Below are positions 4,044 through 25,217 of a DNA stretch of 32,771 nt, in pieces; the stretch's first letter is position 1; the number at the start of each line of letters is the position of its first letter. Made by a program: the position numbers and the translations under genes. Source of the stretch: a virus; IMG/VR virus record IMGVR_UViG_3300043449_001435, positions 1-32,771 of that record; one strand, 5' to 3'. The notes under the pieces are model-generated. The model was not told the origin of the DNA. It made no database searches and saw only the letters and a program-made list of their open reading frames with translations.

Positions 4044-4820
4044 ATGAAGTATAATTTAATTTTAGAGAATTGGAGAACATTCTTAAAAGAAGCAGACCTT
4101 TCTTCTGTCGCTCCAACATCAGCAGCAACTAGCGTTACAACCTCAGCAGCAGATATTGCTGCTGCCGTTGAAAAAAGCAAAGACGAACTTAGAACAACAA
4201 AAGCTAAAGACGCAGTAAGAGCAGCTTTGACTGTTGCTAAAGAACAGGCAAAAGCTTTAGGTAAAGAATTGTCCGAAGATGAAATACGAGCCATATTAAA
4301 AACTGTTAGTGACGATTTAAGACTTTCTGAAGCTAAAAAAAAAAGGTCTAAAGTTGTAAAGAAGAAGAAATCTGGTGACCGTTGTACTAGAATAGCCAAA
4401 CGTAAATATGATGTTTGGCCTTCTGCTTATGCTTCTGGTGCTGTTGTTAAATGCCGCCAAGGAAAGATTTGGAAAGGTATAAGCGAAAGTACAACAGATG
4501 AAGAAATTGATGATGCTTTGCTTCTTGAAGAGATTGAGCAAATTGAAGTAATTGAAGAAGCTAAAAAGAAAGATTATAAGCCAAACTTCTCTAAAGAAAA
4601 TGAGCAAGGTCTTCATGGATGGTTTGCCAGAAACAAAGGTAAAGGCTGGATAAACTGTAGAACTGGTGGCCCTTGTGGTCGTGATTCTGCCGATAGTGGC
4701 GGTAAATACCCAGCTTGTAGACCAACCAAAGCACAATGTAAATCTGCTGGTAAAGGACCGCTAAGAAAAAAGAAATCATCTTCTCCAATCTCTTGGACCA
4801 AAAAGAAAAAGAAGGACTAA
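4044..4820 (+). CDS. Tagged Lys/Cys-rich protein (DUF5872-like C-terminus)
   Basis: A 258-residue protein in three parts. Residues 1-17 (LILENWRTFLKEA) form a short amphipathic tag like those on other genes in this window and reminiscent of T4 internal-protein capsid-targeting sequences. Residues about 18-105 are Ala/Lys/Glu-rich helix. Residues 114-137 hold a Cys module with 'KYDVWPSAYASG', and about 190-235 hold a second one with 'GLHGWFARNKGKGWI', several cysteines and 'YPACRPTKAQC'. The second module matches my memory of DUF5872, common in uncultured aquatic phages. The end is a poly-Lys tail. Glu-rich 'IEQIEVIEEAKK' between modules resembles a prohead-protease-type cut site. Function is unknown; a packaged or head-associated DNA-binding protein is an inference. 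Confidence 0.75.
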   Translation: MKYNLILENWRTFLKEADLSSVAPTSAATSVTTSAADIAAAVEKSKDELRTTKAKDAVRAALTVAKEQAKALGKELSEDEIRAILKTVSDDLRLSEAKKKRSKVVKKKKSGDRCTRIAKRKYDVWPSAYASGAVVKCRQGKIWKGISESTTDEEIDDALLLEEIEQIEVIEEAKKKDYKPNFSKENEQGLHGWFARNKGKGWINCRTGGPCGRDSADSGGKYPACRPTKAQCKSAGKGPLRKKKSSSPISWTKKKKKD

Positions 4821-4828
4821 TTAACAAT

Positions 4829-5242
4829 ATGAGCGACAAACTTACATCATTTAAAGATTTTCAAATATTAACTGAAAATTTTAAGAACTTTATTGAAACC
4901 GAAGAAACTGAATATGACGATGCAGTTTTAGATGATGGAACTCTTGTTTGTCCTGCTTGTCTTGAAGAAGTTCTTGAAAGCGAAAGAGCTATTATTCAAG
5001 AAGCTAAATACCAAGGAAGAACAGTTACATTAAACAAGCCAATGAAAGGCGATGTCAAGAAATCTAAAGTTTATGTTAAAGATCCAAAAACTGGTAATGT
5101 AAAGAAAGTTAATTTTGGCGATAAAAACATGAAGATTAAAAAGTCAAATCCAAAAAGACGTAAATCCTTCAGAGCACGCCACCACTGCGAAAACCCAGGA
5201 CCAAAGACTAAAGCACGTTATTGGTCTTGCAAAGCTTGGTAG
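4829..5242 (+). CDS. Tagged basic protein with C-terminal Cys/His motif
   Basis: 137 residues from ATG 4829, preceded by GAAGGA; an in-frame ATG at 4793 would add 12 residues overlapping the previous gene and has no ribosome site. It opens with 'LTENFKNFIETEE', the same xENxxxFxxE pattern as the gene before. An acidic patch with CPAC follows, then a strongly basic middle (KPMKGDVKKSKVYVKD), and a C-terminus with 'ENPGPKTKARYWSCKAW', a motif I recall as recurrent in aquatic phage proteins of unknown role. Tag, basic character and Cys modules pair it with the preceding gene; both may be head-associated. That role is inference. Confidence 0.72.
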   Translation: MSDKLTSFKDFQILTENFKNFIETEETEYDDAVLDDGTLVCPACLEEVLESERAIIQEAKYQGRTVTLNKPMKGDVKKSKVYVKDPKTGNVKKVNFGDKNMKIKKSNPKRRKSFRARHHCENPGPKTKARYWSCKAW

Positions 5243-16243: not shown

Positions 16244-16600
16244 ATGAAAAGAATAACAGAAGCACAAATTAGAAAAGTCATTAGAGAAGAATTAGTAAAA
16301 GTTCTTAATGAGCAACTAGAAGATAAAGGCTCTCAATTGTCAAGACAACATTTTCAAGAACGCCCAAATATGGCTCAATATGCAAAAGATGAAGCTGGTC
16401 GTTGTTTAGAAGGTCATAATCAAAATAATGGTCAGTATGCAATTGTAACTGGCTGTAAATATTATTATTTATCTGCACAAAATATGCAACGCATGAAAGG
16501 TGGCGAACTTCATAATGAAACATTCAATCGTATAGAAAGTTTATTAAAAGATTTGGGTTTATCAAAACAAATCAATGATTTACCAGTTCGATATGAATGA
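16244..16600 (+). CDS. Small tagged hypothetical protein
   Basis: 118 residues. The first 25 (MKRITEAQIRKVIREEL and on) form a charged amphipathic helix nearly identical to that of the next gene; the first 26 bases are the same at DNA level (16244-16269 versus 16614-16639). The remainder, with 'YAIVTGCKYYYLSAQNM' and two cysteines (residues 53 and 70 approximately), is not recognised. I recall the 'ITEAQIR..IREEL' opening from several unrelated aquatic phage proteins, which suggests a shared sorting or packaging tag rather than a domain. T4 internal proteins use such N-terminal tags, but the sequence is not the same. Function unknown. Confidence 0.7.
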   Translation: MKRITEAQIRKVIREELVKVLNEQLEDKGSQLSRQHFQERPNMAQYAKDEAGRCLEGHNQNNGQYAIVTGCKYYYLSAQNMQRMKGGELHNETFNRIESLLKDLGLSKQINDLPVRYE

Positions 16601-16613
16601 AAAAAGGATACAC

Positions 16614-17078
16614 ATGAAAAGAATAACAGAAGCACAAATAAGACAAGTTATTAAAGAAGAGTTAATTGGTCTTTTAAACGAAATGAGCCAAGAGCCAGTT
16701 AAAACTGTTAAATTTAGTGAATTGAAAAAAGCCCAAGAACAAGTAGGCAAGAACTATTCTTCTACTACTGGTACTGATTTATCGCAGTTTAAAAATATTC
16801 TTGATGATGCAATGATTCCAATTGTTAAAACTCGTATTGGATATGCTGCTATGATTAAAACTGAACCTCAAATGAAACCTATGGAGTTTGTAATCAGTAC
16901 AGAAGTAGCCAAAAAACTTGGTATTAATACCAATTCAGTTAAATCTGCACAAACAGGAAATGCGACCGAACCTTCACAAGTAGGAAACATAGCTGGGTTG
17001 CCACAAAATTTGCGTAGCCTTCACGGATTACAAGAAGCAATAAGAAGATTAATTTTAAAAGAGTTAAGAAGACGTTGA
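16614..17078 (+). CDS. Small tagged hypothetical protein with helical C-terminus
   Basis: 154 residues from ATG 16614, preceded by AAAAGGA; an in-frame ATG at 16575 lies in the upstream gene and lacks a ribosome site. It opens MKRITEAQIRQVIKEEL, a near-copy of the previous gene's start. The middle is not similar to that gene. The C-terminus, 'LQEAIRRLILKELRRR', is another short basic amphipathic helix of the same type, so the protein may carry a tag-like helix at both ends. The stop codon overlaps the -35 of the next promoter. No known function; tag plus small size suggests a packaged or structural role. Confidence 0.7.
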   Translation: MKRITEAQIRQVIKEELIGLLNEMSQEPVKTVKFSELKKAQEQVGKNYSSTTGTDLSQFKNILDDAMIPIVKTRIGYAAMIKTEPQMKPMEFVISTEVAKKLGINTNSVKSAQTGNATEPSQVGNIAGLPQNLRSLHGLQEAIRRLILKELRRR

Positions 17079-24518: not shown

Positions 24519-25217
24519 ATGTTATTCAACAAATCTCGTAAGAAAGTAAATGACGAACACGAACACGAAGATGAAGCAGAAGAGGCAGCAGAGGCTGGTT
24601 CTAAGCCACCTATTCCAATGACGCTATTTATGCCTCCTGCTGGTGCTGGTAAAGGAGACTCACGTTCAATTGGTCTATTTGGAGAAGTAGACGAAGTAAA
24701 GATTGCTCAAATTGTTGCAGTAATGCTTGATTTGGCAGAAAATTGTGAAGTTGACTACCCATCCAACCCAGATGATCCAGAATCTGAAATTGAGACAGAG
24801 AACGAACCTATTGAATTTATTATAAATACCCCAGGTGGTTCTGCTGATGATATGTTTGCGCTTTATGACATTATGCGAGTTATTAAAAATAAGTGCGACA
24901 TTGTAACTTTCGGTGTAGGGAAAGTAATGTCTGCTGGTGTTCTTCTTCTTGCAGCAGGAACTAAAGGACAACGTAGAATCGGAAAGAATTGTCGAGTAAT
25001 GATTCATTCAGTAATTGGTGGTAATGCTGGCCCTCTCCATAACCTTGAAAACGAAATGGACGAGATTAGATATGTTCAAAACGCTTATCTAAAGGCACTT
25101 GCAGCAGAAACCAATATGTCATTCCGTCAACTCAAGAAAATGATTGATAAGAAGGTCAATGTTTACCTTTCAGCAGAAGAAGCAGTAAAGCTTGGAATTG
25201 CTGATATTATTGTTTGA
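24519..25217 (+). CDS. ClpP-like serine protease (S14 family)
   Basis: 232 residues. The ClpP fold is visible from about residue 100: 'IEFIINTPGGSADDMFALYD', catalytic Ser in 'GKVMSAGVLLLAAG', catalytic His in 'CRVMIHSVIGG', and an Asp in 'MIDKKVNVYLSAEEAVKLGIAD'. About 90 residues at the N-terminus are acidic and Pro-rich, not present in bacterial ClpP. ClpP-type proteases form barrels; in phages they are used for head maturation or for degrading host proteins with a ClpA/X partner, none of which is seen here. The N-terminal extension would replace the normal axial pore loops. Context next to an acidic tagged protein and upstream of GroEL favours a head-related role, an inference. Confidence 0.88.
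   Translation: MLFNKSRKKVNDEHEHEDEAEEAAEAGSKPPIPMTLFMPPAGAGKGDSRSIGLFGEVDEVKIAQIVAVMLDLAENCEVDYPSNPDDPESEIETENEPIEFIINTPGGSADDMFALYDIMRVIKNKCDIVTFGVGKVMSAGVLLLAAGTKGQRRIGKNCRVMIHSVIGGNAGPLHNLENEMDEIRYVQNAYLKALAAETNMSFRQLKKMIDKKVNVYLSAEEAVKLGIADIIV

Follow-up and report, generated by a model that had tools for sequence, protein, structure and literature searches.

What do two adjacent genes that encode small cysteine-containing modules set among lysine-rich runs contribute to a phage? The pair lies at positions 4044 to 5242 of the IMG/VR virus record IMGVR_UViG_3300043449_001435; the window analyzed here is that entire record of 32,771 bases, and the remainder of the phage genome lies outside it. 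The initial annotation had described two neighbouring genes with three Cys modules and Lys-rich regions, and all of these are indeed present: open reading frame 1 (ORF1) carries KYDVWPSAYASG (module A) and GWFARNKGKGWI (module B), ORF2 carries PGPKTKARYWSCK (module C), and Lys-rich runs flank the modules in both. ORF1 is an open frame with an ATG start; ORF2, also open, adjoins it and is counted here from the ATG at 4829, the ORF list giving an upstream TTG at 4793 as the alternative (149 amino acids, aa). Our analysis makes it likely that ORF1 and ORF2 are head-packaged precursors, to be cut into basic mini-proteins by the S77 prohead protease. The modules, a boundary motif, a cassette and the co-occurrence with the protease in relatives are read from the sequence; for the window phage itself, we infer that the proteins are targeted, cut and able to bind DNA. 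The parts of the two genes are listed below (a slash marks a predicted cut; pI, isoelectric point; charges are net charges).

4044 to 4820, plus strand: ORF1 precursor, 258 aa, with tag, spacer, module A, acidic linker and module B, in a conserved slot between exonuclease and DnaB genes
4044 to 4091, plus strand: ORF1 residues 1-16, capsid-targeting-like N-terminus by sequence, ending LKE/A
4092 to 4331, plus strand: ORF1 residues 17-96, spacer ending LSE/A (predicted cut), charge -2, pI 5.1
4332 to 4487, plus strand: predicted mature peptide of module A, residues 97-148, ending ISE/S, 2 Cys, charge +15, pI 10.6
4488 to 4559, plus strand: ORF1 residues 149-172, acidic linker ending IEE/A (predicted cut), charge -11, the boundary of cassette D in locus L006 versus L003
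4560 to 4817, plus strand: predicted mature peptide of module B, residues 173-258, 4 Cys, charge +18, pI 10.2
4829 to 5242, plus strand: ORF2 precursor, 137 aa, with possible tag, acidic spacer with CPAC and module C, matching phrog_7595 (E 6.9e-14)
4829 to 4876, plus strand: ORF2 residues 1-16, possible targeting N-terminus by sequence reading, weaker than that of ORF1, ending LTE/N
4877 to 5002, plus strand: ORF2 residues 17-58, acidic spacer ending IQE/A (predicted cut), charge -11, pI 4.1
5003 to 5239, plus strand: predicted mature protein of module C, 79 aa, 2 Cys, charge +21, pI 10.6, modelled with a predicted local distance difference test (pLDDT) of 87.4 and a predicted template modelling score (pTM) of 0.72

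Relatives were collected in two scans of viral contigs, in which 79 loci of 249 and 80 of 450 confirmed relatives were kept, and modules were called on 150 sequences by searching their six-frame ORFs with profiles. A fourth module, D, has the pattern KWSEKYK...INC..PKGFSQKAHC. The statement of the initial annotation that the modules recur in phages in different combinations was borne out, as A to D form eleven arrangements among 179 unique proteins, the window's own counted: C (80), A-B (29), A-D-B (16), A-B-C (14), B (13), D (8), A (7), A-D (5), A-D-B-C (4), A-C (2) and D-A-B-C (1). Most named phages with modules are marine.

A short motif, [L/I/V/M]-x-E, recurs at the module boundaries. Among upstream sequences made non-redundant (no pair identical at more than 8 of 14 positions), [LIVM]xE was found in 42/46 representatives for C, 14/17 for D, 44/52 for A and 28/35 for B, and the stricter [LI]xE in 29, 13, 40 and 26; the representatives stem from 101, 34, 78 and 77 instances, with 0, 1, 3 and 16 skipped. 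Shuffling the 20 upstream residues yielded means of 2.5, 1.2, 2.7 and 2.4 (maxima 8, 5, 8 and 8). At P1, the last residue before the predicted cut, the 150 representatives have Glu in 144 cases and Asp in 3; P3 is one of LIVM in 93 (C), 82 (D), 85 (A) and 80% (B), compared to 13, 0, 6 and 6% for P2. In A and B, the basic run that leads up to the core differs in length between instances, and P1 was set as the last acidic residue before that run; P1 being chosen acidic, only Glu over Asp and P3 are free in these two modules. A site also lies within a few residues after module A in 57/78 instances. The window itself has LKE/A at the ORF1 tag, LSE/A before and ISE/S after module A, IEE/A before B and IQE/A before C. 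As a sequence pattern, the boundary motif is close to the L/I-x-E motif of the T4 prohead protease gp21, which is described as cutting C-terminal to the Glu (PMC9026906; PMC5694885).

Charge patterning could be another source of such a motif: in low-complexity proteins, LxE before Lys runs would arise from amphipathic acidic helices and mark no functional site. The linkers are in fact rich in E, L and I, and shuffles with P1 held fixed raised the means to 12.0 (C), 4.6 (D), 16.1 (A) and 8.9 (B). The observed 42, 14, 44 and 28 nevertheless exceed the maxima of these shuffles (22, 10, 29 and 18), and P3 but not P2 is hydrophobic. Comparable acid-to-basic steps, defined slightly differently from those of the boundary test, were counted in 1215 further ORFs (at least 150 aa) of these loci; only 18% (186/1059) carry [LIVM]xE, with Glu in 57%. 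We therefore regard an origin from charge patterning as very improbable.

The N-termini and the charges of the proteins are consistent with packaging and cutting. In T4, N-terminal propeptides of 10-19 residues are described as directing internal proteins into the prohead core and as being removed by gp21 (PMC9026906; PMC5694885), and residues 1-16 of ORF1 fit this type in length and in their L/I-x-E end. N-termini resembling a capsid-targeting sequence (CTS), by a permissive pattern, were found in 108/162 distinct module-protein N-termini versus 192/1076 other ORFs of at least 150 aa. The predicted products of A, B and C, with masses of about 5.9, 9.5 and 9.2 kDa, all carry the strong positive charges listed above; among the window spacers, the linker 149-172 and the ORF2 spacer are clearly acidic and the ORF1 spacer 17-96 merely slightly so. 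Across all unique proteins, the mean net charge per residue is +0.18 to +0.26 for modules and -0.16 for 267 linkers (range -0.64 to +0.21).

Further support comes from the comparison of L003 and L006, in which 256/265 aligned ORF1 residues are identical and L006 has 42 extra aa, namely module D plus an acidic linker, inserted between ...IEE/ and ...IEE/AKKKAYKP. In this one pair, as aligned, a module is gained or lost between predicted cut sites. Judged by sequence identity, ORF1 is the variable part of the locus: in L003, L004, L006, L010 and L035, RecA/DnaB are 92-99.7% identical and the best ORF1 segment 54-66%. This variability and the gain of modules would suit a different last step, in which packaging and cutting are the same and the modules act in the host after ejection, in anti-restriction or takeover, like T4 IPI and Alt; T4 IPI provides a described precedent (PMC9026906). 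Such a role is compatible with our explanation up to the last step. The variability is, however, located in spacers and module content, the matching ORF1 segment reaches 88-94% over part of the protein in L020, L027 and L031, and the modules are well conserved among diverse phages, each of two alignments of 24 sequences showing a mean column identity of 55%. We consider action in the host, the main rival, possible, with some doubt, and prefer the neutralising or organising of packaged DNA as function, a choice that we hold to be about evenly balanced.

The S77 protease itself was found in 15/26 records of one set, of which 18/26 have the major capsid protein Gp23, and in 3/16 of another. The S77-negative records among the 26 are the non-T4 phages HTVC026P, Kolga and CRP-901, the short records L003, L004, L012 and L030 of close relatives, and the long L034, L142, L128 and L116. 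One 184-kb record (L016, which is the same record as L097) combines S77, Gp23 and the exonuclease/DnaB slot of ORF1-ORF2. In IMG/VR records with S77, a boundary site stands on the module-C protein in 11/12, and L040 has INE/G two residues earlier. A comparable site was found at residue 55-64 of Gp23 in 10/12 relatives' loci with a readable N-terminus (18 tried).

Named phages offer a natural control, for which we used 20 of 28 module-C phage records; the omitted 8 are strain duplicates and CRP-3. In all four phages with S77 (C48C1, immuto, Melnitz, HTVC008M), C stands behind LTE/A, LDE/G, MME/S or LEE/A. Of the 16 without S77, 14 have C right at the protein start, 8 of them directly behind the initiator Met, so that in these 8 the start codon occupies the place of P1; of the remaining two, CRP-2 has 14 residues ahead of C, and the CRP-6 protein is a fusion of C and a protease. 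Stand-alone homologues of module C thus begin at or near the first residue of the predicted mature module. No in-frame motif was found just before the annotated start in any of the 16; in 12 of them the frame meets a stop within the 14 preceding codons and offers no alternative start between, whereas in Kolga, Aegir, CRP-235 and CRP-738 translation could also begin upstream of the annotated start. The 16 are not independent, as there is mutual similarity within HTVC026P/111P/112P/202P, CRP-235/738, CRP-901/902 and Kolga/Aegir. In CRP-901, A and B are two separate small frames between gp68 and gp67, the latter being C.

Two side observations concern the setting of module C. In two Autographiviridae without S77, S30-C28 and HTVC041P (L213, L215), the C gene has a head-gene address, flanked by the genes for scaffolding and capsid. 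In the CRP-6 fusion (L211:1435-2124), the partner of module C is an XkdF/S78_2 head-maturation protease (E 7.2e-18), and the BFVD entry A0A6J5T6Y7, a match named XkdF, suggests a second C-protease fusion.

Evidence from a virion comes from the cyanophage S-CREM2. Its gp160 (128342-129235) matches phrog_727 (E 9.1e-49), carries module A and, by reading, shows a B-like unit after LSE/A, a Cys-pair unit after LEE/K and module A after ISE/G. In the published virion list gp160 appears with 7 unique peptides and 13.1% coverage (PMC10665884), and the coordinates given there match those in the S-CREM2 record. The same list includes ORFs 154 (cytidylyltransferase), 155 and 156, the prohead protease and Gp23 (PMC10665884); the N-terminus of ORF 154 ends FLTE/A. 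The S-B68 homologue is annotated as 'structural protein', and the passages of PMC3037559 available to us mention cyanophage virion proteomics and do not name the module cluster. Together with the CTS-like N-termini, the boundary motifs and the co-occurrence with S77, the gp160 peptides support the proposal of head proteins in the initial annotation. Absence from virions, which it had named as evidence to the contrary, is contradicted for the homologue S-CREM2 gp160, not for the window phage.

Beside these results, we noticed that S-CREM2 gp160 (L151:4236-5129; also L171, L173) has the stretch GFTGAAAP.GP.AG.DP.M in common with Gp23, matching phrog_696 'major head protein' (E 4.8e-10); in Gp23 this stretch sits directly after the predicted cut site. 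From the sequence, a piece of the capsid-protein arm seems to be reused in the gp160 precursor, perhaps for docking on the shell. As in S-CREM2, NMN adenylyltransferase or cytidylyltransferase-like proteins lie near module genes in MW353176 (L203, L204) and KC465899 (L153).

Several points weigh against precursors for head packaging. The gene neighbours are replication genes (exonuclease, DnaB and the ribonucleotide reductase gene nrdJ), not head genes: a 5'-3' exonuclease gene lies upstream of ORF1 (PF02739, E 8.9e-27) and a DnaB-type helicase gene downstream of ORF2 (PF03796, E 5e-20). The order exonuclease-ORF1-ORF2-DnaB is kept in the 21 relatives compared, as far as contigs extend; 2 of the 21, whose contigs stop near ORF2, have no visible DnaB, and some relatives have larger intergenic gaps. 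A T4-type late promoter was not found ahead of ORF1/ORF2: the exact TATAAATA occurs 5 times in the window (shuffle mean 2.79), none of them ahead of the two genes on the plus strand, and this count is as uninformative as that of sigma-70-like sites, which are at chance level (8 versus a mean of 7.6). Prohead S77 was not seen in the window, a 32,771-base fragment, nor in the close-relative fragments L003, L004 and L012, though these three carry Gp23. The long records L034, L116, L128 and L142 (84-138 kb) lack S77 and Gp23 and yet have boundary sites on C or D proteins (LVAE/A, MEE/A and ITE/K, with FSE/A in L116 and INE two residues off in L034); these records may be incomplete, but in their present form they run counter to our reading. 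The motif is short and is absent upstream of 4/46 C, 3/17 D, 8/52 A and 7/35 B. Only 24% of all 295 acid-to-basic steps in module proteins fit it (53% Glu), so that it is not general within these proteins, although these steps mix intramodular with boundary steps and are no test of the boundaries. A mild bias stems from one of the six patterns used to retrieve module C, which contained IIQE. Finally, the S-CREM2 authors caution that some regulatory proteins in their list are possible purification carry-over (PMC10665884).

Some of these points would fit intact, unprocessed multidomain nucleic-acid-binding proteins of the replication or repair stage, with the linkers as flexible acidic spacers. 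Such proteins would match the neighbouring genes, Cys-rich and Lys-rich modules suit binding of DNA or RNA, LxE carries little information, and the four long module-bearing records have no S77. They would not account for a P1 ratio of Glu to Asp of 144:3 with hydrophobic P3 and fixed placement, for S77-less phage versions that start at or near the predicted cut residue, for the cassette between sites or for a homologue in the virion, and we judge them unlikely. The initial annotation was hence supported in part: its head proteins gained support, whereas its view of the genes as intact multi-module proteins did not, since the evidence points to precursors for cutting and the grammar of the motif had been missed.

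In the mechanism we propose, N-terminal tags would carry the ORF1 and ORF2 precursors into the prohead core, one tag serving each chain of modules and acidic spacers balancing the charge; before the cut, the spacers would probably also hold the basic modules in solution and away from DNA. The S77 (gp21-type) protease, active inside the prohead, would cut after [L/I/V/M]-x-E during head maturation, which would remove the tags, dice the spacers and free three strongly basic, Cys-bearing modules before or as DNA enters. Once free, the modules would remain inside the head together with the DNA that enters and would most likely neutralise or organise it; ejection with the DNA may follow. Release would thereby be tied to packaging, and the chain would set the module ratios.

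Comparing this to known systems, the precursors resemble the T4 internal proteins IPI, IPII, IPIII and Alt in having a short N-terminal propeptide that ends L/I-x-E and a basic product, in having relatives that co-occur with S77 and Gp23, and in the homologue found in a virion. They differ in that T4 internal proteins have end propeptides removed to yield one protein each, whereas ORF1-type precursors hold up to four modules, most with their own site. Multiple cuts per chain are shared with the T4 core and scaffold proteins gp22, gp67 and gp68, which are cut by gp21; most of their pieces, however, are scaffold fragments that leave the head, while the units here are basic Cys modules that also occur as free-standing genes. 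Polyvalent proteins of phages and conjugative elements likewise have several domains in one chain and are described as thought to be co-packaged and partly released by proteolysis (PMC5512222). They carry embedded peptidase or enzyme domains; no Pfam match at E<=1 to such a domain was found in ORF1/ORF2, which would instead rely on the head protease in trans. In the open papers searched, we found no description of these modules as head-protease precursors. Three features seem new, namely the arrangement of modules in a chain, a cassette located between cut sites and the connection to Tlr6f/DUF5872; CTS-tagged internal proteins and multi-cut core proteins are already known from T4.

The structural data address the fold and the cysteines. 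The initial annotation had considered zinc-binding, DNA-compacting proteins; four Cys are invariant in module B over 24 sequences, and modules A and C have two each. The model of A+B (pLDDT 61.9, pTM 0.28) is too poor to judge metal-ligand geometry, and DNA compaction by the modules is plausible from their charge. The module C model had no PDB match at E<=0.001; Cren7-dsDNA entries (E 1.7-5.5, probability 0.09-0.23) and, in a second structure comparison, kinase domains (best Z 2.5) were not used. In BFVD, 15 matches at E<=0.001 comprised 10 'uncharacterized' and 3 nameless proteins, 1 ChaB and 1 XkdF. As a separate observation, the acidic spacer of ORF2 contains a CxxC in GTLVCPACLEE (window 4937-4969), with CAAC, CAGC, CEAC or CVAC in relatives; a pre-cleavage metal site formed jointly by this CxxC and the module is conceivable.

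Regarding family membership, module C corresponds to the function-less phrog_7595 over nearly its full length (profile 6-96 of 96), and ORF1 matches phrog_727 (E 1e-6) and phrog_38880, both of unknown function. Pfam matches of ORF1 to HisK_sensor (E 0.34) and of ORF2 to a TFIIB zinc ribbon (E 0.16) were below a useful level, and no near DNA match to window 1-25000 was found in the phage collection. The earlier label 'DUF5872-like' proved correct though weak, with the window scoring 23.9 bits, under the curated cut-off of 27.5 of DUF5872 (PF19197). Profile positions 5-38 fall on module A (4368-4472) and 38-84 on module B (4563-4730), so that DUF5872 corresponds to A+B, both halves being matched in order. 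A DUF5872 match at E<=0.1 was present in 23/24 aligned members, the window among them, and the A-type gene CRP-2 gp70 scores above the cut-off (41.9 versus 27.5 bits). Module C matches DUF5754/Tlr6f (PF19058) weakly: 5/24 aligned members do so at E<=0.1 (best 1e-4), and at E<=0.01 matches occur in 12/29 records, falling on the module C gene in 11, while none of the 29 reached the curated cut-off of 27.4 bits. The module C fragment of the window had no PF19058 match at E<=0.1, and window ORF2 gave E 0.41.

Tlr6f is reported to be conserved in nearly all polinton-like viruses, several virophages, many giant viruses and some phages, and to lack detectable similarity to domains of known structure or function (PMC4642659), and the giant algal virus CpV-BQ1 is listed with one DUF5754 and one DUF5872 protein (PMC12085832). 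It is tempting to speculate, though we find it rather doubtful, that A+B (DUF5872-like) and C (Tlr6f/DUF5754-like) form a common kit of virion-internal basic mini-proteins in tailed phages, polinton-like viruses and giant algal viruses. T4-like phages would string this kit into cleavable chains and S77-less phages would keep it as separate small genes, and the kit would organise packaged DNA across unrelated capsid lineages.

Some observations lie beyond the two genes. Ahead of module A, L065, L071, L075, L077 and L079 have an additional Cys-rich unit, C(P)PATQDL.LNTKNRD...CGNCVAFD...GYCWMHHFKCHSA, and a unit CW.GY..VG.K......NCV stands between modules (e.g. in L065), with a similar 32-aa stand-alone gene in Kolga (gp57). 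The longest chains among those listed are proteins of 680-769 aa in L036 (truncated at the 5' end), L037, L038 and L046, which enclose modules A, D, B and C and have extended acidic N-termini as well as NNYMFW...DHI units in several copies. Elsewhere in the window, a ClpP-like protein (24519-25217) has head-maturation proteases as best PHROG matches (E 3.3e-22) and could be a plain ClpP or a second head protease. Two adjacent small ORFs (16244-16600 and 16575-17078) have nearly equal starts, MKRITEAQIRKVIREEL and MKRITEAQIRQVIKEEL, the second 14 residues in; from this tag-like N-terminus with ITE/A, further head cargo is possible. A strict tag, L.ENW..FL.E, was found on 16 distinct non-module ORF N-termini, one of which belongs to a 327-aa protein continuing KKGAYSFDYDETLIK, which we take to be HAD-like by motif; judging by these tags, enzymes may be packaged too.

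For the orphan Tlr6f family, the predicted sites and tags indicate, via likely phage relatives, a probable location in the head interior. They further suggest a route by which T4-like phages may load several small proteins at fixed ratios, with one tag, one chain and cutting on site, and in which the modules would be exchangeable as cassettes between cut sites.

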